A stretch of 64,000 nt of DNA, from positions 3,658,001-3,722,000 of the forward strand of contig NZ_CP154796.1 of assembly GCF_039566955.1 (NCBI RefSeq), read 5' to 3'. The DNA comes from Micromonospora sp. DSM 45708 (GTDB lineage: Bacteria > Actinomycetota > Actinomycetes > Mycobacteriales > Micromonosporaceae). The position numbers and the translations under genes were made by a program. The notes under the pieces are model-generated. The model ran no database searches. It was not told the origin of the DNA and was given only the letters and a program-made list of their open reading frames with translations. Below, piece by piece: positions 8,580 to 31,783 of this stretch. The stretch's first letter is position 1, and every line of letters starts with the position of its first letter.

Positions 8580-11500
8580 AGTGGGGTCAACCGGGCCTCG
8601 ATCGCCTCGCACTCGCGCTCCCGGTCGGGAAGGAACGTCGTCCCGAGCAGGTCCCGGAGAGCCGCACAGTGCTGCCGGGCCGCCTCCGGCTCACCCCGGC
8701 GGATCGCCACCTTCGCCCGCACGATGAGGGCATCGCTGTGCAGTGCCCGGTAGGCGTTGCGGGAAGCGATGAGGACGGCGTCCTCCGCAGTCCGGCCGGC
8801 CTCCTCGGCGGCGCCTTCGAGCAGGGCGGCCTCGGCGAGACCGATGGCCGCCTGGCATTCGAAGTACTGGAAGCCCCGGTTCCGGCTGATCGCCAGGCTC
8901 TCGGTGAACCGGGCACGGGCGTCATCGACAGCGCGGCTTCCCAGCAGCGCGAAGCCCAGGGTGTTGAGGGTGGCCGCCTCGGCCCGCAGGTTGCGCAGTT
9001 TCCGGGCCAGCCGCACCGCCTCGGCGGCGTTGTGCACGGCCGACACCCACTCGTGCAACTGCCGGTCGAGCTGGCTCAGCTCATCGAGCACCGACAGCTC
9101 ACGCAGCGTCGCCCCGCTACGACGGTAGTAGTCGAGTGCGGTCTCGAAGTGGGCGCGCGCGGGCTCGAAGTCTTCCATCTGTCGCAGGACCATCGCCAGG
9201 TTGTGCCGGTTGGCCATCGCCGACGGATTGCGCGCCGACCTCTCGTTCAACTGCTGAGCCGCCGTCAGGTACCCGGCCGCCTCGGCGAGCTGCCCCCGTT
9301 CGTGGCACAGCGTGCCCAGGTCGTTCAATGTCACCGCCCGAACGTGGTGGAACTCGGGGCCGTCCCCCAGTGTCAGGGCCCGCTGGTATAGCTCCTGCGC
9401 CTCGTCCGGGTGGCCCAGCTCGGCCTGCACGAGCCCGAGGTTGTGCGACAGGTACGCCTCGCCGACGAGCCAGCCGCTGCCGCGGGCGGCCTCGATGCCC
9501 CGTCGGTAGGCGTCGGCGGCCAGGTGATGCTTACCCGCCGCCCAGTGCGCCTGCCCGATGGTCTGATGCATGGCGGCCTGGGCCAGCACGTTGCCCGCAG
9601 CCTCCGCGGCGGCGAGCCCGGCCGACCCGGTCGCGAGCCAGGCGAGCACGTCTCCCGAGACGAAGAAGTAGCCACGGAGCTGGTCGGCCAGTTGCCAGGA
9701 CCGTGCGCCGTGTCCGTCCGCCGCGGCGACCTCGACCGCGGCGAAGAGGTTCGACGCCTCCCGGCTGAGCCATCCCGTCGCGGCGTCGAGGTCGGGAAAC
9801 GGGTTCTCGGCCGGGTCGACGTCGATCGGCAGCCGCACCATGTCGGCGTAGACCAGGTCCATCGCCGAGGCGGTGCGCGTCAGGTACCAGGTGTAGAGCC
9901 GGCCCAGGGCCGCGGCGCGGTCGACGGGCGTCTCGCGGGTCTCGCCGGCCCGCAGCGCGTAGAGGCGCAGCAGGTCGTGGTACCGGTAGCGGCCCGCACC
10001 GCCGGGCTGGAGCAGGTTCTCCGCGACAAGGCGCTCCAGCGCCGTCCGGACACCGCGCTGCTCCGTGCCGAGCAGCGCGGCGACCGCGGCGGCCGAGAAG
10101 TCCTCCCCGGGGATGAGCGCGGCGGTGTGGAAGACCTCGGCCGCCGCCGACGGCAGGGCGCGGCAGCTGATGGCGAAACTGCTCGTCACGGTACGGTCGC
10201 CGAGGCTGAATTGGGCGAGCCGCAGCCGCTCGTCGGTCAGGCCCTGGAGGACCTCGGCGACCGTACTCCCCGGTCGGCCCGCCAACCGGCCCGCCATCAG
10301 CCGCACCGCGATCGGCAACCGGCCGCACGCGTCGACCAGGGCCTCGGCCTCCCCGCGTTCGGTCTGGACCCGGGCCGCACCGAGCTTGATCCGCAGCAGG
10401 TCCAGCGCCTCGTCCGACGTGAACACCGGCAGGAGCGTCGTGGCGGCGCCGTCCAACTCCTCACACTGGTTACGGCTGGTGACCAGGACCGCGCTTCCGC
10501 CCGGACCGGGCAGCAGCAGGCGGATCTGGGCGGCGTTGTGCGCGTTGTCGAGCACGATCAGCACCCGTCGGTCGGCGAGCACGCTGCGGTAGAGCGCGGC
10601 GGCCTCGTCCTCGTCACCGGGGACGGCACGAGCCTCGACCCCGAGGGCCTTCAACAGTCGGGCGAGCCCGTACGCGACCGCTACCGGCCGGTCGTCGCCA
10701 CCGCGGAGGTCGATGTAGAGCTGCCCGTCCGGGAAGTCCCGCCGGAGCCCCCAGGCCGCCTTCAGGGCGAGGCTGGTCTTGCCGACGCCGGCCATGCCGG
10801 AAATGACGCGGACGACAGGTGATCCGCGCTCCGGGTAGCGGAATGCGCGTTCGATCTCACGCAGCTCACCGGCACGTCCGCAGAAGTCCACCGGTGGCGC
10901 CGGCACCTGCTGCGGCGTGACGGCGCCACGGAGGTCCACCGGCGTACCCGCGCCTCGATCCCCCGGCCCACCGATCACGGCCTGCCGCGCCTCGATCAAC
11001 TCGCGGCCGGGGTCGACGCCCAGTTCCTCGGCGAGCCGCTGGCGGACACTCTCGAAGGCTTCGATCGCGGCGGCCTGCTGCCCGGAGGCGGCGAGCGCGA
11101 CGACCAGCCGCGCGTGCAACGACTCGTGCCACGGGAACCGCCCCGCCAGCCGGCGCAGAAGCGGAAGGACCTGCCGCTGCTGGTGCACCACCTCCCCGAG
11201 AGCCGCCAGGCGCACGGCCGCCTCCACGCGTTCCTCGGCCAGCGCGGTGATCAACGGATCACCGGCGAGTTCCGGCACGTCCTGGGCGGCGTCGTCGCCA
11301 CGCCACATGTCCAACGCGTCGAGGAGCAGTTCGAAGGCGCGCCCGGGGGGCAGGGCCGGCGCGCCGGCGTCGAGAAGACGGGACCGGTAGGCCACCAGAT
11401 CGAGTCGCTCGGGATCGGCCCGCAGTTGGTACCCGCCCGATCCGAGGATCACCGACGGCGCCCGGTCCGGGTGCGGTGTCGGCTCCAGCAGGCGACGGAT

Positions 11501-23559: not shown

Positions 23560-24873
23560 GTGAACGGGAACAACGACGCTCCCGCGGCGAGCCGGCCCCG
23601 GCCGGCTTCGCGCGGCGCTGAGCTGGAAGAACCGCTCGCACTGCACGGCGGTCGGCCGGTACGGGACACACCGTGGCCCACCTACGACAAGGGCGCGGTA
23701 TTCGTGCACCCCGACGACGAGGACGCCGCAATTCGGGCCATTCGCAGCCATCTCTACTTCCGATACGACCATCGCGCGCAGAAAGAAACCGAATGCGGGC
23801 GGTTCGAGGACGAACTGTGCCGTTATTTCGGCACCCGACACGCCCTCGCGGTTTCCAGCGGCACTGCCGCACTGGCCCTCGCCCTGATGGGCGCCGGAGT
23901 GCCGGCGGGGTCATTGGTCGCCTGTCCCGGATTCACTTTCGTCGCCACTCCGAGCGCCATTGTGCTGGCCGGGTGCCGGCCATTCCTGGTGGAGGTCGAC
24001 GACGACCTGCGGATGGACCTCGACGACCTGCGCCGCCGCTGGCGGCCGGACATCCGTGCCGTCATGGTCGTCCACATGCGCGGCTTCGCCGCCGACGTCG
24101 AGGCACTCGCCGCCTTCGCCGCCGAGATGGGCGTGCCGCTCATCGAGGACGCCGTACCGGCGCTCGGCGCCGAACTCAACGGCCGCAAGCTCGGCACGTT
24201 CGGCGCCGCCGGAGCGTTCAGCACCCAGTCCGACAAGGCCCTCAACTGCGGCGAGGGCGGCTTCCTGGTCACCGACGACAGCACGCTGTTCGCCCGGGCG
24301 GTCGCGCTGTCCGGGGCGTACGAGGGACGGCTGCGCCGGCACTTCCCGCACGGCGAGCCGCCGCTCACCGGCCTGGACCTGCCGCTGCTCAGCCTCCGGA
24401 TGGACGAGATCCGGGCGGCCCTGCTGCGCGCCGAGCTGACCCGGCTGCCGCAGCGGCTGACGCTGTTCCACCGCAACTACGCGCACGTCTCGCAGGCCCT
24501 GGCCGGCCTGCCCGGCATCGCGGTACGGCGGCCGGTCGCGCCCGGGGCGTACCTCGGGGAGGCGTTCGTGTTCCGCGTACCCGGCGGCGACGCCGGCTGG
24601 TTCGCCCGGGCGCTGCGGGCCGAGGGGATCGACGCGCGGAACATCGGTGCGGACGACGACCTGAACGTGCGGGCGTTCTGGAACTGGCGTTTCCTCTACG
24701 ACACCGCGGACCCGGGACAGATCCGCGCGACGCTGCCGCGCACCGCGCGGCTGCTCACCGAGACCGTCGACGTGCCGCTGTCGTCCAACCTCACTCCGGA
24801 CGACTGCGACGACCTGATCCACGCGGTCCGCAAGGTGGCCACCGCCCGCGAGAGCGCGTTGGCCCGCCCGTGA
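23560..24873 (+). CDS. DegT/DnrJ/EryC1/StrS-type PLP aminotransferase
   Basis: The 437-residue protein has the DegT fold: HALAVSSGTAALALALMGAG (PLP phosphate region), VACPGFTFVATPSAIVLAG, VVHMRGFAADVEAL, IEDAVPALGAELNGRK, and FSTQSDKALNCGEGGFLVT with the PLP-binding Lys. These enzymes transaminate keto-sugars or cyclic ketones, often in antibiotic pathways. GTG 23560 has GAGGAG about 9 nt upstream; an in-frame ATG at 23530 is the alternative start. It is the first gene of an eight-gene operon with a capsid-like shell gene, and its stop overlaps the MFS gene by 4 nt. The first 450 nt have more A/T-ending codons than the rest of the operon. Confidence 0.93.
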   Translation: MNGNNDAPAASRPRPASRGAELEEPLALHGGRPVRDTPWPTYDKGAVFVHPDDEDAAIRAIRSHLYFRYDHRAQKETECGRFEDELCRYFGTRHALAVSSGTAALALALMGAGVPAGSLVACPGFTFVATPSAIVLAGCRPFLVEVDDDLRMDLDDLRRRWRPDIRAVMVVHMRGFAADVEALAAFAAEMGVPLIEDAVPALGAELNGRKLGTFGAAGAFSTQSDKALNCGEGGFLVTDDSTLFARAVALSGAYEGRLRRHFPHGEPPLTGLDLPLLSLRMDEIRAALLRAELTRLPQRLTLFHRNYAHVSQALAGLPGIAVRRPVAPGAYLGEAFVFRVPGGDAGWFARALRAEGIDARNIGADDDLNVRAFWNWRFLYDTADPGQIRATLPRTARLLTETVDVPLSSNLTPDDCDDLIHAVRKVATARESALARP

Positions 24874-26063
24874 CCGGCACGCACCTGACCGACGCCGGCA
24901 CCGCGGAGCGGCGCCTGCCCCGGCTCGCGCTGGTCGGGCTGCTCGGCGGGCTCTTCGCCGGCTACCTCGGACTGACCGCTGTCATCCCGGTGCTGCCCGG
25001 CTTCCTGCGCGAGCGGCACGACGCCGGTGACCTCACCGTCGGTGTGGTGGTCACGGTGACCGCGGTGACCGCGCTGCTGGTCCGGCCGGTCGCCGGCGCG
25101 CTCGCCGACCGGTACGGCCACCGCACGGTGATGCTGACCGGCGCGCTCGTGGTGGCCGCCGGTGGCCTGCTCTACCTGGCGCCGCTGGGCGTGCCGGCGC
25201 TGGTGGCGGTCCGGCTGCTGCTCGGCGCCGGCGAGGCGGCGCTGTTCACCGCCGGGGCGGTGTGGATCGTCCAGCTCGCCCCGCACCACCGGCGCGGTCA
25301 GCTCATCGGCCTGTACGGGGTGAGCATGTGGGGCGGCATCTCCGCCGGCACGTTCCTCGGCGCGACCGTGCAGCAGGCCGGCTATCCGGCGGTGTGGGTG
25401 CTCAGCGCCGCCGCGCCGGCGGTCGGCGCCGCGCTGGTCGCGCTGGCGCCGGCGCCGCCGCGTACCGCGCCGGCGGCCAGGGGCGGCGGCCTGCTGCTGC
25501 GCCCCGCGCTGCTGCCCGGCGTGGCGCTGACGTTCGGCGCCGCCGGGTACGCCGGCCTGGCCGCGTTCGTGGTGCTGCACCTGGACGCCCGCGGCATCGG
25601 GCACGGCGTGGTGGTGCTGAGCTGCTTCAGCGCCGTCTACGCCGGCACCCGCCTGGTCATCGGTCACCTGCCGGACCGGCTCGGCCCCCGGCGGGTGGCC
25701 GCCTGGTGCGGGGTCGGCGAGGCGGTCGGCCTGCTGGTCATCGCGGTCGCCCCGAACCTGCCGGTCGCGGTGGCCGGCAGCGTGGTGATGGGCGTCGGGT
25801 TCTCGCTGCTGCACCCGTCGCTGGCGCTGATGGTGATGAACCGCACCGACCCGGCGCGGCAGGGCGCGGCGATCGGGGCGTACACCTCGTTCTGGGATCT
25901 CGGCCTGGCGGTGTGGGGGCCGGCGACCGGGCTGGTCGCCGCCGGCTTCGGCTACCCGGCGGTGTTCGTCGCCGGCGCGGCCGGCGCGGCGGTCGCCGCC
26001 GCGATGGCCCTGCGCATCGGCCGGCCCGCCGCCACGGACACCCCGAGGGAGGTACCGGCATGA
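24870..26063 (+). CDS. MFS transporter, probable product exporter
   Basis: The 397-residue protein has about twelve hydrophobic segments and the MFS motif-A-like loop LADRYGHRTVMLTG (about 70-83), repeated weakly in the second half (HLPDRLGPRRVAAW). It resembles drug/H+ antiporters with 12 helices. GTG 24870 overlaps the aminotransferase stop (GTGA), and the stop overlaps the next ATG (ATGA), so it is translationally coupled on both sides. Within this operon it probably exports the pathway product; import of a precursor is the alternative. Confidence 0.9.
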   Translation: MTGTHLTDAGTAERRLPRLALVGLLGGLFAGYLGLTAVIPVLPGFLRERHDAGDLTVGVVVTVTAVTALLVRPVAGALADRYGHRTVMLTGALVVAAGGLLYLAPLGVPALVAVRLLLGAGEAALFTAGAVWIVQLAPHHRRGQLIGLYGVSMWGGISAGTFLGATVQQAGYPAVWVLSAAAPAVGAALVALAPAPPRTAPAARGGGLLLRPALLPGVALTFGAAGYAGLAAFVVLHLDARGIGHGVVVLSCFSAVYAGTRLVIGHLPDRLGPRRVAAWCGVGEAVGLLVIAVAPNLPVAVAGSVVMGVGFSLLHPSLALMVMNRTDPARQGAAIGAYTSFWDLGLAVWGPATGLVAAGFGYPAVFVAGAAGAAVAAAMALRIGRPAATDTPREVPA

Positions 26064-26230
26064 GCGAACGCACCGAGCGCAGCGAGGGCCGTGAGCACAT
26101 GCCCGGCCAGCCCGGCATGAGCGAACGCACCGAGCGCAGCGAGGGCCGTGAGCACATGCCCGGCCAGCCCGGCATGAGCGAACGCACCGAGCGCAGCGAG
26201 GGCCGTGAGCACATGCCCGGCCGGCACCGC
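26060..26230. repeat. Three 57-bp tandem repeats
   Basis: Units at 26060, 26117 and 26174, each beginning atgagcgaacgcaccgagcg. The first two are identical; the third differs only in its last bases (cggcaccgc for cagcccggc). All are in frame with the sulfotransferase. Confidence 0.97.
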
Positions 26231-27196
26231 ATGAGCGGACCCGTGACCGTGCTCAGCGTCACCGGCTGGTGCCGCAACGGCAGCACCATCATCGGCAACG
26301 TCCTCGGCGAGGTGCCCGGCGTGGCGCACGTCGGCGAGCTGCACTTCCTGTGGAAGAACTCGACCGGGCGCGGCGTCAACGACCGCTGCGGCTGCGGGCT
26401 GCCGCTCACCGCCTGCCCGCTGTGGTCGGCGGTGCTGCCGGTCGGCCGTCCGGCCGGCGTGTCCGCCGAGGCGCACGCCGCCGAGGTGATCCGGCGGCAA
26501 CGCGCCCGGCTGCGGACCCGGCACACCTGGCGGGTGCTGCGCCGGGGCGCCGCCGACGCGGACACCCGTGCGCACGCCGACCTGCTCGGCGCGGTCTACC
26601 GGGAGGTGGCCGCGCGCACCGGCGCCCGCGTGATCGTGGACAGCACCAAGATCCCGGGCGAGTCGGCCCTGCTGCCGCACGTGCCCGGCGTCGAGCCGTA
26701 CTGGCTGCACCTGGTCCGGGACCCGCGCGCGGTGGCGCACTCGTGGCGGGAGCCGAAGGAGTACGTCTACGCCATGTCGGCGGCGCGCAGCACCGCGTAC
26801 TGGCACGGGTTCAACCTGGCCTCGGCGGCGATCAACCGCCGGCACCCCGGCCGGTCGACGTTCCTGCGCTACGAGGACTTCGCCGCCGACCCGGCCGGCA
26901 CTGTCGACGCGCTGCTGCGGCTTATCGGCGCCGACCCGGCCGACAACCCGGTCCACGACCGGACCGTCGAGCTGCGCGGCAACCACACCGTCACCGGCAA
27001 CCCGGACCGGTTCCGGACCGGCCCGACGGTCATCCGGGACACCGACGACGGGTGGCGGCGGACGCTGACCGGCCGGCAACGGGTGGCCGTGGCGGCGCTG
27101 GCCTGGCCGCTGTCCACCCGCTACGGCTACCGGCCCGGCGGAACGGCCCGGACGCATCCCGGCGCGGCGGCCCGCGTCGGCGAGAGGGAGAGGTGA
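26060..27196 (+). CDS. Sulfotransferase with triplicated N-terminal extension
   Basis: The 378-residue protein contains the PAPS-dependent sulfotransferase fold: GWCRNGSTIIGNVL (5'-phosphosulfate loop, about 68-81), a Cys-rich NDRCGCGLPLTACPLW turn, VIVDSTKIP, and LHLVRDPRAVAHSW (3'-phosphate site). It should move a sulfuryl group from PAPS to a hydroxyl or amine. Residues 1-57 are three near-identical 19-residue units beginning MSERTERSEGREH, each with its own ATG (26060, 26117, 26174); the core starts at a fourth ATG (26231). Only the first ATG has a good ribosome site (GGGAGG) and the coupling overlap, so the extension is probably translated. It might be a shell-targeting tail or a hitch-hiking repeat. 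Confidence 0.88.
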   Translation: MSERTERSEGREHMPGQPGMSERTERSEGREHMPGQPGMSERTERSEGREHMPGRHRMSGPVTVLSVTGWCRNGSTIIGNVLGEVPGVAHVGELHFLWKNSTGRGVNDRCGCGLPLTACPLWSAVLPVGRPAGVSAEAHAAEVIRRQRARLRTRHTWRVLRRGAADADTRAHADLLGAVYREVAARTGARVIVDSTKIPGESALLPHVPGVEPYWLHLVRDPRAVAHSWREPKEYVYAMSAARSTAYWHGFNLASAAINRRHPGRSTFLRYEDFAADPAGTVDALLRLIGADPADNPVHDRTVELRGNHTVTGNPDRFRTGPTVIRDTDDGWRRTLTGRQRVAVAALAWPLSTRYGYRPGGTARTHPGAAARVGERER

Positions 27197-28032
27197 CGGA
27201 CGTGGATCTGGGGCTCACGGGGCGGGTGGCGCTGGTCGCCGGCGGCACCAGCGGCATCGGGCTGGCCTGCGCGAAGGAGTTCGCCGCCGAGGGGGCGCAC
27301 GTCGCGGTCTGCGGTCGCGACCCGGCGCGCCTGGCCGCGGCCGAACGGGAGCTGACGTCGGTGGCCACCGGACGGGTCAGCGCGACCGGCGTGGACCTCA
27401 CCGACACCCACGCCGCCGCCCGCTGGGTCGACGACGTCGCCGCCGAGCTCGGCGGGGCGCACGTGCTGCTGGTCAGCGGCGGCAGCCCGCCGGTCGGCAC
27501 CGCCGCCGGGTTCGGCGTCGACGACTACCGGGCCGCCGTCGAGCGGGTGCTGCTGCCCGCGGTCGCGGTGTCGACGGCCGCGCTGCCGCACATGCGCGCC
27601 GCCGGCTGGGGCCGGCTGCTGCTGGTCGCCTCCGAGACCGCCTGCGTGCCGATCGGCCCGCTGGTGCTGTCCGGGGTGACCCGGGCCGCGCTGGTCCGCT
27701 TCGCCCAGGGGCTCGCCGTCGACGTGGGACGGGACGGCGTCACCGTGAACGTGCTCGCGCCCGGCAGCGTGCGTACCCCGCCGATGGAACGCGCGGCGGC
27801 GCGGCTGGCCGGCGCGGACGGCGACGTGGAGGCGCGGCTGGCCGCGATGGGCCACCACAGCGCGCTCGGCCGGCTGGCCCGCCCCGAGGAGGTGGCCGCG
27901 ATGGCCGCGTTCCTGGCGAGCGAGCGGGCGTCGTACGTGACCGCCGGCGTGCACCTGATCGACGGCGGGGCCGCCGCCACCGGACCCGACCTGCCCCACC
28001 TGACGGGCGTCCGCAAGGACACCTACGCCTGA
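27193..28032 (+). CDS. Short-chain dehydrogenase/reductase family protein with atypical active site
   Basis: The 279-residue Rossmann protein has the cofactor motif AGGTSGIGLACAKEFA (about 17-32) and the C-terminal PGSVRTPPMERA region and LIDGG end of classical SDRs. At the catalytic position it reads VASETACVPIGPLVLSGVTR, where classical members have Tyr-x3-Lys, so the proton-relay Tyr and Lys appear absent. A related SDR subgroup with LSNxLRA at this place also lacks them. It may bind NAD(P) and act by another mechanism, or serve as a cyclase, dehydratase or scaffold. GTG 27193 overlaps the sulfotransferase stop (GTGA). Confidence 0.9.
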   Translation: MTDVDLGLTGRVALVAGGTSGIGLACAKEFAAEGAHVAVCGRDPARLAAAERELTSVATGRVSATGVDLTDTHAAARWVDDVAAELGGAHVLLVSGGSPPVGTAAGFGVDDYRAAVERVLLPAVAVSTAALPHMRAAGWGRLLLVASETACVPIGPLVLSGVTRAALVRFAQGLAVDVGRDGVTVNVLAPGSVRTPPMERAAARLAGADGDVEARLAAMGHHSALGRLARPEEVAAMAAFLASERASYVTAGVHLIDGGAAATGPDLPHLTGVRKDTYA

Positions 28033-28062
28033 TCCGCCCGACCGCCGCACGAGGGAGTGCCC

Positions 28063-28902
28063 ATGCCGACGACCAGCCAGTTCACCGAGCGGGACGTCTC
28101 CGAGTTCTTCGACGAGACCACGCAGACGTACCTCAGTTTCTGGGACAGCGAGGGCGTGCTGCACACCGGCTACTTCGCCGGTGACGACGACACCGACTAC
28201 CACGCGGCGGCGGACCGGACCTCGGACATCCTCGCCGAGGACGCCGGCATCGACGCGTCCTCGAACGTGCTCGACGTCGGTTGCGGCTGCGGCAACTTCC
28301 TGCTGCGGCTGGCCGGGCGCACCGGGTGCCAGGGCGAGGGGCTGGACCTGAGCATCGAGCGGGTGCGCTTCGCCGAGCAGCGCCGCGCCGAGCGGGGCGC
28401 CGGGCTGGACGTGTCGTTCCGGCACGGCTCGGCCACCGCCCTGCCGTACGCCGACGGCACGTTCACGCACGTGGTCAGCCAGGACGCGTTGTTCCTGGTG
28501 CCGGAGAAGCCACGCAGCCACGCCGAGATGTTCCGGGTGCTCGCGCCGGGCGGGGTGCTGGCCGTCTCCGACTTCCTCCAGCCGACCGAGCGGATCGGCG
28601 AGGCGGCCCGCCGGCACGTCTACGACCGGGTGCGCTGGAACGGCGGCTACTCGCTGGACGGCTACCGCGAGGCGCTGACCGAGGCCGGGTTCGTGGACGT
28701 GGTGGCCCGCAGCCTGGACACGCACATCCGGCAGACGTACCGGGTGCTGGGCCGCACCGCCCGGGAACGGGCGGAAGGCACGGCGGACGAGGCGGCGCGG
28801 ACCTGGATCCTCGGCTTCGCCGAGTCGTGCGACGAGATCCAGGCGGCGATCGACCGGGGCGAGTTCGGCTGGGGCATGTTCATCGCCCGCAAGCCGGCCT
28901 GA
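28063..28902 (+). CDS. SAM-dependent methyltransferase, class I
   Basis: The 279-residue enzyme has motif I NVLDVGCGCGNFLLRLAGRT (about 70-89), motif II around GSATALPYADGTFTHVVSQD and motif III FRVLAPGGVLAVSDF. This is the pattern of small-molecule methyltransferases related to tocopherol or sarcosine/dimethylglycine types. The ATG at 28063 has GAGGGA 6 nt upstream; a GTG two codons earlier is less likely. It follows the SDR by 30 nt and precedes the capsid-like gene by 14 nt. It may N-, O- or C-methylate an intermediate of the operon pathway. Confidence 0.92.
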   Translation: MPTTSQFTERDVSEFFDETTQTYLSFWDSEGVLHTGYFAGDDDTDYHAAADRTSDILAEDAGIDASSNVLDVGCGCGNFLLRLAGRTGCQGEGLDLSIERVRFAEQRRAERGAGLDVSFRHGSATALPYADGTFTHVVSQDALFLVPEKPRSHAEMFRVLAPGGVLAVSDFLQPTERIGEAARRHVYDRVRWNGGYSLDGYREALTEAGFVDVVARSLDTHIRQTYRVLGRTARERAEGTADEAARTWILGFAESCDEIQAAIDRGEFGWGMFIARKPA

Positions 28903-28916
28903 GGAAGGGGCGAGAC

Positions 28917-29795
28917 ATGCAGCACCGCACGGACACCGTGAAGCGGACCATCGCCGAGGTCGTCGCCGAGCGGAAGACCCAGATGTCGCCCGGCGCGATG
29001 TTCGTCGAGGCGTTCGCCAAGGACGGCTTCGACACCAGCGTCGACTACGACGTCACGGTCACCGACTCGCTGACCAGTTCCCGGCGCAAGCCCCGGTACC
29101 CGTCCCGGAACATGCTGAAGGTGGTGGACCTGTCCCGGGACCCGCAGGACTTCTACTGGCACGAGAGCCCGCCCCGGCCGGGTGATCCGGCGGTGGACGG
29201 CGCGGACCTGCGCCGGGAGGCGGCCAACCACTTCCACCGCTCCCCCATCCCGCCGCTGCTCACCACCACCGCGTGGGTGCAGGTGCCGGACACGCTGTGG
29301 GAGGACCCGGTCAGCTTCGCCCAGTTCATCGACTACCGGCTGGTGGTGCGGCTGGCCACCGCCGAGAACCACACCATCCTGCGCGGCGAAGGTGGGCTGC
29401 TGGCCATGCCGGACCTGGGTCGGCTCACCGACCCGGGGCCGTTCGCCTCGACGATCCTGTCGGCGTGCAACGAGGTCGAGCAGATGGGCAGCACCGCCGA
29501 CGGGTTGATCATCAACCCGGCCGACTACTACCGGCTGCTCGGCAGCGGCTCGCTGATGCGGGACGTGGAGGAGAACGGCGTCTTCATCGTGCGTACCCGG
29601 CTGGTCGACCCGGGCACCGCGATCGTCGGCGACTTCGGCCACGGCGCGTTGCTGTTCGACGCCGGCCGGTCCACGATCGGGTTCGCCGAGCCGCCGCCGG
29701 GCACGTTCGCCGAACCGGGGGTGGCGCTGCGCGCCGAGATCTGGGAACGGGTCGTGGTCAACCTGCCCACCTGCTTCTTCGTCGTCACGCTCTGA
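28917..29795 (+). CDS. HK97-fold capsid-like shell protein, probable natural-product (Family 3) encapsulin
   Basis: The 292-residue protein follows the HK97 major-capsid order. It has a charged N-terminal arm (1-45) and an extended E-loop-like segment (about 45-95). A P-domain helix follows: WEDPVSFAQFIDYRLVVRLA (128-147) then ENHTILRGEGG. The A-domain start is STILSACNEVEQMGS with GLIINPADYYRLL (196-208), then IVRTRLVDPGTAIVGDF, LLFDAGRSTIGFAE, and the final VALRAEIWERVVVN strand-helix. No terminase, portal, protease or tail gene is near, and the gene sits inside a biosynthetic operon with 12-14-nt gaps, the setting of Family 3 encapsulins. It should self-assemble around one or more pathway enzymes. 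A degenerate prophage gene is the less likely alternative. GAGGAAGGGG precedes the ATG. Confidence 0.87.
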   Translation: MQHRTDTVKRTIAEVVAERKTQMSPGAMFVEAFAKDGFDTSVDYDVTVTDSLTSSRRKPRYPSRNMLKVVDLSRDPQDFYWHESPPRPGDPAVDGADLRREAANHFHRSPIPPLLTTTAWVQVPDTLWEDPVSFAQFIDYRLVVRLATAENHTILRGEGGLLAMPDLGRLTDPGPFASTILSACNEVEQMGSTADGLIINPADYYRLLGSGSLMRDVEENGVFIVRTRLVDPGTAIVGDFGHGALLFDAGRSTIGFAEPPPGTFAEPGVALRAEIWERVVVNLPTCFFVVTL

Positions 29796-29807
29796 CCGGC
29801 GGCGACG

Positions 29808-31085
29808 ATGACGACGCCCGCCCGCGCCGACCCCGACGTCCTGGTCATCGGCGCGGGCATGGTCGGGTTGTGCTGTGCCTGGTTCCTGCGCCGCGCCGGC
29901 CACACCGTGACGGTTGTCGACCGGGGCGAGGTCGGTGACCCGGCGGCCTGTTCGGCGGGGAACACCGGCTTCGTCGGCACCCAGGGCTCGGCGCCGCTGG
30001 CCGAGCCCGGGGTGCCGGCCAAGGGCATCCGCTGGCTGTTCAGCCCGGAGAGCCCGTTCTCGGTCCGGCCCCGGCTGGACGGCGCGCTGCTGGCCTGGCT
30101 GTGGCACTTCCGCCGGCACTGCACCGACCGGCACGCCCGCGCCGGCTTCGAGACGCTACTCGCGCTCAAGCAGCGCAGCCTGGCGCTGCTGCGCGAGATG
30201 TGCGCCGAGGACGAGCTGGCCGGCACGCTCACCGAACGCGGCATGATCCTGGCCTGCCACACCGAGCAGGGGTACGCGCAGGCGCGCCGCACGATCCGCG
30301 CGGCGACCGCCCGCGGGGTGCCGCTGCGTGACCTGGGCCGGGCGGAGCTGGCCCGGCTGGAGCCGGGGGTCGACTTCGCGGTGGCCGGTGCGCTGCTCAA
30401 CGAGGAGGGCGCCGCGCTGCGCATCCCGGCGTTCCTGGTCGGCCTCGCCGAGGCGCTGCGGGCGCGCGGCGTGGAGATCGTCACCGGCGCCGAGGTGCGC
30501 GGCTTCGAGGCGACCGGCCGGCGCGTGCGGGCGGTGCGGACCGCCCGGGGCGACCTGCGTCCGGCCGAGGTGGTGGTGGCCGCCGGGGTGTGGTCGGCGG
30601 CGTGCGCCCGGATGCTCGGCGTCGGGCTGACGCTGCAACCGGCCAAGGGCTACACCGTCACGCTCCCGGCCGGGCCGGGCACGCCCACCCGGCCGGTGCT
30701 GCTCAGTGAGGGCAAGGTCGCGGTGATGCCGCTGGGTGACCGGGTACGCGTCGGCGGCACGCTGGAGCTGTCCGGGCTGGACCCCTCGATCTCGCCGCGC
30801 CGGGTGGACGGCATCCTGCGTACCGCCCGGCGTTACCTGCCGGCGCTGGACACCGGCCGGCGGCTGGACGTGTGGAGCGGGTTGCGCCCGTGCACCCCGG
30901 ACAGCCTGCCGTTGATCGGCCGGGCCGGCGGGTACGACAACGTCAGCGTGGCCACCGGCCACGGACACATCGGGATGGGGCTGGCCCCGGCCGGCGGTGA
31001 GCTGCTCGCCCAGCTCGTCACCGGCGCCGAGCCGGCGCTGCCGGCGCGGACGTTCGCGCTGGACCGCTTCCGGAGGGGGAGCTGA
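29808..31085 (+). CDS. FAD-dependent amino-acid oxidoreductase (DAO/DadA-like)
   Basis: The 425-residue protein opens with the FAD dinucleotide fold VLVIGAGMVGLCCAWFLRRA (about 10-29) and an acidic residue at the end of strand 2 (VVDRGE). The C-terminal part has WSGLRPCTPDSLPLIGR and ATGHGHIGMGLAPAGGELLA, the second FAD contact of DadA-type D-amino-acid dehydrogenases. The likely reaction is oxidation of a D- or imino-acid. Its stop overlaps the next start by one base (TGATG). The neighbouring racemase-like gene and the aminotransferase suggest amino-acid chemistry in this operon. Confidence 0.9.
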   Translation: MTTPARADPDVLVIGAGMVGLCCAWFLRRAGHTVTVVDRGEVGDPAACSAGNTGFVGTQGSAPLAEPGVPAKGIRWLFSPESPFSVRPRLDGALLAWLWHFRRHCTDRHARAGFETLLALKQRSLALLREMCAEDELAGTLTERGMILACHTEQGYAQARRTIRAATARGVPLRDLGRAELARLEPGVDFAVAGALLNEEGAALRIPAFLVGLAEALRARGVEIVTGAEVRGFEATGRRVRAVRTARGDLRPAEVVVAAGVWSAACARMLGVGLTLQPAKGYTVTLPAGPGTPTRPVLLSEGKVAVMPLGDRVRVGGTLELSGLDPSISPRRVDGILRTARRYLPALDTGRRLDVWSGLRPCTPDSLPLIGRAGGYDNVSVATGHGHIGMGLAPAGGELLAQLVTGAEPALPARTFALDRFRRGS

Positions 31086-31783
31086 TGGGCGACCGACCGG
31101 AGATCGGGGTGCTCTGCCTCGACACCAGCTTCGACAAGATTCCCGGGCACATCCGCAACCCGGCCACGTTCGACTTCCCGGTGCGCTACCGGGTGGTCGA
31201 GGGCGCCACGCCGCAGCGGCTGGTCCGCGAGGCCGACCCGACGCTGCTGGAACCGTTCGTCGACGCGGCCCGGGACCTCCAGGCCGCCGGCGTCGCCGGC
31301 ATCACCGGGGCGTGCGGGTTCCTGGTGCTGTTCCAGGCCGAGCTGGCCGCCGCGGTGGACGTGCCGCTGTGGTCGTCGAGCCTGGTGCAGCTGCCGATGG
31401 TGCACCGGATGGTCGGGCGTACCGTCGGGCTGCTGGTCGCCGACGAGGCGGCGCTGACGCCACGGCACCTGGCGGCGGTCGACGCGGCGGACGTGCCGGT
31501 CGCGGTCACCGGCATGGCCGGGCAGCCGGAGTTCCGCGAGGTGATGCTCCAGGGGCGGCGGGACGCGCTCGACGTGGACCGGCTGGCCGCCGAGGTGGAC
31601 GACCGGATCGACGCGCTGGCCCGTGCCCACCCCGACCTGGGCGCGCTGGTGATCGAGTGCACCGACCTGGTGCCGTTCGCCCACCGGATCCAGGCGCGGC
31701 TCGGCGTGCCGGTGTTCGACATCGTCACGCTCACCGAGATGGCTCACGCCACCCTCACCCGCCGCCCCTACCCACGCTCCTAG
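31085..31783 (+). CDS. Aspartate/glutamate/hydantoin racemase superfamily protein
   Basis: The 232-residue protein has the two-cysteine active site of this superfamily: GITGACGFLVLF (Cys about 79) and LVIECTDLVPF (Cys about 194), one in each pseudo-symmetric half. Two cysteines allow two-base racemisation; related maleate isomerases and decarboxylases use one or both. With the DadA-like gene before it, it may set or invert an amino-acid stereocentre. It is the last gene of the operon; a perfect-stem hairpin begins about 50 nt after the stop. Confidence 0.88.
   Translation: MGDRPEIGVLCLDTSFDKIPGHIRNPATFDFPVRYRVVEGATPQRLVREADPTLLEPFVDAARDLQAAGVAGITGACGFLVLFQAELAAAVDVPLWSSSLVQLPMVHRMVGRTVGLLVADEAALTPRHLAAVDAADVPVAVTGMAGQPEFREVMLQGRRDALDVDRLAAEVDDRIDALARAHPDLGALVIECTDLVPFAHRIQARLGVPVFDIVTLTEMAHATLTRRPYPRS

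Follow-up and report, generated by a model that had tools for sequence, protein, structure and literature searches.

A Family 3 encapsulin shell gene within a conserved eight-gene biosynthetic operon of Micromonospora, and a candidate cargo signal on its SDR-fold protein

Introduction

The gene at positions 28917-29795 of a 64,000-nucleotide stretch of the genome of the soil bacterium Micromonospora sp. DSM 45708 (the window, whose numbering is used throughout) probably encodes a Family 3 encapsulin, the shell of a self-contained module in which eight genes direct the synthesis and export of a small modified metabolite. In the mechanism that we propose, the shell protein would self-assemble into a cage that separates the cytoplasm from a reactive intermediate, either carbonyl or amino in nature; one or more of the operon enzymes, most probably a divergent SDR-fold protein, would reside inside, with the SDR held there by a conserved C-terminal peptide, and an MFS protein would export the finished molecule.

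Family 3 was proposed from sequence in 2021 (PMC8346489). The excerpts of that survey by Andreas and Giessen used here place Family 3 shells near sulfotransferase and SDR genes, typically in clusters for a peptide-based product, describe the family in six classes with one Chloroflexi member counted, and name the chloromyxamide cluster as the sole Family 3 cluster studied by then, the role of its shell being unknown (PMC8346489). Excerpts of two further sources state that Families 3 and 4 'remain to be characterized' (PMC8229669) and that experimental validation of Family 3 was lacking as of 2024 (PMC10960027); the geosmin and linocin M18 encapsulins figure in excerpts of PMC12766979 and PMC8776678, and the available sections of PMC12407261 make no mention of Family 3. 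Searches of the open-licence literature brought up no study in which a Family 3 shell had been examined experimentally, nothing that joins encapsulins with Micromonospora, and only the 2021 survey for encapsulins together with short-chain dehydrogenases.

Results

The product of 28917-29795 is assigned to the Family 3 encapsulins

The shell gene lies within a run of forward-strand genes, the features of which are as follows.

23560-24873, forward strand: DegT/DnrJ/EryC1/StrS aminotransferase (Pfam PF01041), with a GTG start after GAGGAG
24870-26063, forward strand: MFS transporter, probable exporter (Pfam PF07690), in a 4-nt overlap with the aminotransferase stop
26060-27196, forward strand: sulfotransferase (Pfam Sulfotransfer_3, 34.8 bits against a cut-off of 27)
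27193-28032, forward strand: SDR-fold protein (Pfam PF13561/PF00106), start more likely at 27202
27982-28029, forward strand: extra C-terminal peptide of the SDR, GPDLPHLTGVRKDTYA, a candidate cargo signal by its conservation and its absence from other-class SDRs
28063-28902, forward strand: SAM methyltransferase (Pfam Methyltransf_31/25/11)
28903-28910, forward strand: Shine-Dalgarno-like GGAAGGGG before the shell gene, read from the sequence
28917-29795, forward strand: Family 3 encapsulin shell protein with a predicted HK97 fold, 292 aa (NCBIfam NF041188, profile match and model)
29808-31085, forward strand: FAD oxidase of the DAO family, glycine/sarcosine oxidase-like (Pfam PF01266)
31085-31783, forward strand: Asp/Glu racemase superfamily protein with both cysteine motifs (NCBIfam NF005679, 267.4 bits against a cut-off of 231)

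The reading frame of the shell gene is intact and opens with ATG; its length, its limits and the gaps on either side (14 nt after the methyltransferase stop, 12 nt before the oxidase start) are those that the initial annotation had given. That annotation had also placed the product in Family 3, and the assignment is supported by the curated equivalog model for the family 3 encapsulin, NF041188, which the protein matches at an E value of 2.5e-95 and 318.6 bits, against a cut-off of 180. On this match we count the product among the shell proteins of the Family 3, or "natural product", encapsulins. The Family 1 model PF04454 (Linocin_M18) gives no match to it at E 1, and the gene is the sole match of its kind in the one-contig genome of 7,016,307 bases. 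Its nearest relative among the matches listed is a protein of Micromonospora tulbaghiae (96% identity) that NCBI names 'family 3 encapsulin nanocompartment shell protein'. Because close relatives bear this name, the shell is a member of an already known kind; the family is recognised and annotated by NCBI, and what is new here is the definition of the eight-gene unit.

Matches to NF041188 above its cut-off occur in 40 of 160 Micromonospora genomes and fall into several classes. An even draw of 396 genomes from the phylum gave two, both from Micromonospora and one of them the source genome, along with 10 further weak matches. Three weak Micromonospora matches below the cut-off (27-35 bits; G054:C4:46004-46690, G135:C2:4388227-4388691 and G100:C116:118472-118897) are possibly phage capsids or remote shells; the first two loci (L102 and L101, respectively) hold no match of at least 45 bits to the operon genes.

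The shell protein is predicted to adopt the HK97 fold

A profile built from 39 shell relatives was compared with the sequences of solved structures. It matched 2gp1 (major capsid protein) at 3.2e-11 over profile positions 59-261, and 1if0, whose chain is named gp5, at 9.6e-11, with alignments that display the same protein; we take both entries to be phage HK97. No chain named as an encapsulin stood among the nine solved sequences that this profile matched at E values up to 10, and the shell as a single sequence reached phage capsids at just 0.008. An AlphaFold2 model of the shell (mean pLDDT 87.3, pTM 0.83) contains a 25-residue helix (131-155), A-domain-like helices, long C-terminal strands and two N-terminal helices, these domain names being our reading of the secondary structure; the first N-terminal helix is of low confidence (block means of 40 and 58 over residues 1-20). 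Profile and model together argue for an HK97 fold in the shell protein.

The initial annotation had recognised this fold from the order of its sequence elements, a likeness that the profile match to a solved capsid places beyond chance. Two of the elements it named are borne out by the model, FAQFIDYRLVVRLA sitting in the long helix and INPADYYRLL lying mostly within helix 201-210. The third, VALRAEIWERVV, had been described as a strand-helix and falls instead within a strand (270-281).

Homology to phage capsids is real, and it is the basis for the alternative that the gene encodes a prophage major capsid protein, remnant or working. The shell is matched by 134 of 50,697 phage records, the best listed being 28-30% identical to major capsid proteins, actinophage capsids among them, across residues 80-292; identity thus peaks at about 30%, across 73% of the protein. 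Pfam Phage_capsid adds a weak score of 20.4 bits, under its cut-off of 24.2. Against a capsid gene, none of the 134 records covers 80% of the shell query, PHROGs yields no family at E 0.01, and the portal (PF04860), terminase (PF03354) and S78 protease (PF04586) families have no match in the whole 7.0 Mb genome, in searches that were positive in 4, 3 and 4 of 14 control genomes, respectively. The lack of such genes, remarked on at first for the window, thus holds genome-wide for these three families. On the phage-record, PHROGs and portal/terminase/protease searches we rejected a phage origin, which the match to an equivalog model and the recurrence of the same enzyme neighbours in several genera also make extremely improbable.

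The shell gene belongs to a closed, conserved eight-gene module

The genes of the window were compared by tblastn with forty loci fetched from GTDB genomes, of which two (L040 and L041) were set aside as another class. The remaining 38 share the order DegT-MFS-sulfotransferase-SDR-methyltransferase-shell-FAD oxidase-racemase-like, with some copies incomplete, and come from Micromonospora, Streptosporangium, Planomonospora, Nonomuraea, Nocardia, actinobacterial MAGs and a Chloroflexi MAG. The racemase-like gene is present in all 38, the FAD oxidase, sulfotransferase and SDR genes in 37 each, the DegT and MFS genes in 35 each and the methyltransferase gene in 26, some of the misses being contig ends. 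The methyltransferase is missing from all 11 Nocardia loci and from L034, no MFS gene was found in L021 or L035, L038 lacks the oxidase between its shell and racemase-like genes, and the DegT match of L036 lies downstream on the opposite strand. Seven more Micromonospora loci in the same score range (L094-L100) carry all eight genes. The sulfotransferase and SDR genes that the initial annotation had named as neighbours of Family 3 shells are therefore present here and conserved across loci. In the locus from Nocardia crassostreae (L031), the shell frame, from about position 10001 of that locus onward, stops after some 123 residues and the sulfotransferase frame continues into the SDR, by sequencing error or decay.

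When called genes within about 10 kb were clustered for 30 of 47 loci, a single family besides the eight, a response regulator (4 loci), occurred in at least four of them. Scarcely any other family is thus common to the surroundings, and the unit is therefore placed at 23560-31783. Asparagine synthase, glutamine synthetase, GCS2, PIG-L and PucR-type regulator genes were rejected as parts, since they matched only in close Micromonospora loci (among L002-L007), with the exceptions of the amidotransferase, found also in L094, L099 and L100, and of a weak, 45% GCS2 match in three Nocardia loci; the amidotransferase and glutamine synthetase that flank the operon do not belong to it. Together the eight genes make up a closed, self-contained and conserved module, in which NRPS and PKS genes, carrier proteins and peptide-bond formers are all lacking. 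The window as a whole gave no hit to Rfam at its gathering threshold and none in a scan for tRNAs.

Of the eight proteins, the shell has changed most slowly (mean identity 0.770 versus 0.619-0.744), and its distances track those of its neighbours (r 0.67-0.87), as compared over 31 of 46 rows after near-identical rows were dropped. The family alignments hold 34-46 rows each, genes that were absent, uncalled or below 48% identity being left out. Motifs that are presumably catalytic are well kept: the DegT lysine (PLP-lysine) motif in 43 of 43 aligned rows, the C[GA]F and CT[DE]L cysteine motifs of the racemase-like protein in 46 and 45 of 46, and the TGWCRNGST loop of the sulfotransferase in 40 of 44. 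The nearest solved relatives of the DegT protein are sugar or cyclitol aminotransferases, 8-amino-3,8-dideoxy-octulosonate transaminase being the closest; those of the FAD oxidase are glycine and sarcosine oxidases, and that of the methyltransferase is a glucose O-methyltransferase. The sulfotransferase and racemase-like protein have no solved relative by sequence at E 0.01. The MFS transporter is probably an exporter, a direction that we infer.

A 57-bp tandem repeat of 3.2 copies, each with its own ATG, occupies 26055-26237 in frame with the sulfotransferase start; the conserved part of that enzyme begins at 26231, and the 57 codons ahead of it are local repeat. A 30-base core of the repeat (3 mismatches allowed) matches the genome at 32 places, of which 28 belong to arrays of 2 to 9 copies at a 57-bp spacing, against none for a reversed control. 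In its exact form, a 28-base core occurs in none of the 13 related loci checked. The element is a dispersed, start-codon-bearing repeat, and because of this dispersal and its absence from related loci we rejected it as a cargo tag.

The operon SDR carries a divergent active site

The canonical catalytic pair of SDR enzymes is YxxxK. The operon SDR (27202-28029) has SxxxR in its place, as do all 165 rows inspected (45 operon rows and 120 homologs, in overlapping sets) and six of six SDRs from other Family 3 classes; SxxxR is thus common to all the Family 3-linked SDRs looked at. Among 15 of 18 SDR paralogs examined in the same genome, one was unreadable, 13 of the 14 others have YxxxK and one has SxxxR. 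The solved relative 2z1n likewise has S and R at these positions, and 3ai3 does not.

This replacement bears on the chemistry proposed in the excerpts of the 2021 survey, where an SDR and a sulfotransferase act in succession to give sulfated hydroxyls (PMC8346489): since SxxxR stands in for YxxxK, that step may use other chemistry here. From the enzyme set of the operon, a small sugar-, cyclitol- or amino-acid-like molecule with added amino, methyl and sulfate groups is a more likely product than a peptide.

The leading candidate for a cargo signal lies at the C-terminus of the SDR

Among the operon termini inspected, from which 11 near-duplicate loci were left out, the SDR alone has a conserved addition past its fold. 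Its tail comprises 16 residues, begins at residue 261 of 276 and has the consensus GPxLPHLTxxRKDTYx; the 25 NCBIfam SDR models listed, out of 163, reach only to residues 257-263, and matches to the three best solved relatives break off at 257-258. A set of 120 SDR homologs includes one with a different ending and no DGG anchor. Of the 119 anchored sequences, 116 end 23 residues after DGG, all of these with the invariant H, and 109 of the 119 close with [DN]T[YF] and at most one further residue. Across the operon rows, an [DN][TV][YF] ending is kept in 32 of 34 from outside Nocardia (exceptions, L020 and L035) and in 0 of 11 from Nocardia, whose loci keep both the shell and its N-terminal stretch. 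The tail is absent from all six other-class Family 3 SDRs (L089-L093 and L041, which include two near-duplicate pairs). The shells of the class share a conserved stretch of about 24 residues ahead of an SPG motif, to which 10 of 12 other-class shells have nothing similar and two (L089 and L090) show a faint likeness.

Other termini were considered as signals and rejected: the AGR/AGQ C-terminal endings of DegT, which vary and which we read as the overlapping MFS ribosome-binding site; the DegT N-terminal tails, which differ between genera; and the C-termini of the sulfotransferase and MFS proteins, with conservation of 0.17 and 0.33 over their last 16 residues. The SDR tail accordingly remains the best candidate for a cargo signal. 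No named Family 3 targeting peptide was found in the open-licence literature, as far as its accessible text extends.

A fuller proposal is that the divergent SDR is dedicated cargo, that GPxLPHLTxxRKDTY is a Family 3 targeting peptide, perhaps docking on the shell N-terminal stretch, and that the pathway is a compartmentalised, non-peptide one; we put it forward tentatively, as more doubtful than probable. It is weakened by the constant length of the tail, its loss in Nocardia, the tail-less SDRs of other shell-bearing classes and the shared ancestry behind every correlation. Because the length is constant, with no linker of varying length, the tail may belong to the enzyme rather than being a signal. 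This would fit an alternative that stands, in our view, about an even chance, namely that the shell is made and needed for another enzyme or for a metabolite as cargo, and that the SDR tail serves the oligomer, the active site or docking of the methyltransferase. The Nocardia loci that have lost the ending also lack the methyltransferase, in keeping with such a role; L034, however, is without the methyltransferase and yet retains DTYT, SDR families extend no further than the start of the tail, and the tail has low confidence in the monomer model of the SDR (mean pLDDT 59-61).

A cage or scaffold without dedicated enzyme cargo, used for storage of substrate, cofactor or product or built as an open lattice, would agree with our finding that, apart from the SDR, no operon protein carries a conserved terminal extension. 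We consider it unlikely, as the shell is under strong sequence constraint and constantly linked to the same enzymes, and as encapsulins in general have native cargo according to the excerpts of PMC10960027.

Discussion

Our preferred reading, that of an encapsulin shell serving a small-molecule module, can be set beside four known systems. With HK97 gp5 and the actinophage major capsid proteins, the shell appears by sequence to have the HK97 fold in common; it differs from them in that phage likeness begins only at about residue 59-80 and in that the host genome has no protease or packaging family matches.

The C-terminal targeting peptides by which Family 1 encapsulins load their cargo, in the excerpts of PMC10960027, are likewise short conserved peptides at the C-terminus of a neighbouring enzyme. 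The candidate tail of the SDR differs in having no variable linker, and is compared without any claim of sequence likeness. Should its reading as a cargo signal be true, it would be the targeting peptide of a Family 3 encapsulin, in a non-peptide compartmentalised pathway.

Other Family 3 classes of the same genus resemble the window in part. In L089-L093 the shell, 26-33% identical to that of the window, also stands beside a sulfotransferase and an SDR, but unlike the operon SDR theirs end without the tail; L089, L091 and L093 further hold genes that we read by sequence as ArgC-, transketolase- and ligase-like. In L083-L088 the shell, about 45% identical, stands beside an MFS gene as it does here. 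L083 and L085 add to shell and MFS a large NRPS-like gene as well as aldo-keto reductase-like and sulfotransferase-like genes (again labels of our own reading), and L084 and L086-L088 have the shell plus MFS, in a Family 3 cluster that differs from that of the window.

With Family 3 as the excerpts of the 2021 survey present it (PMC8346489), the window shares the shell sequence family, the sulfotransferase and SDR neighbours and the biosynthetic setting; compared with that text, it differs in being a closed eight-gene module without an NRPS, PKS, carrier protein or peptide-bond former. The window thus gives Family 3 a compact, conserved representative from a genus that can be cultured; its gene limits are defined, its origin from a phage is very unlikely, and it offers one named cargo candidate. 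Because the operon has these properties, the question of whether Family 3 shells enclose biosynthetic enzymes is now directly testable.
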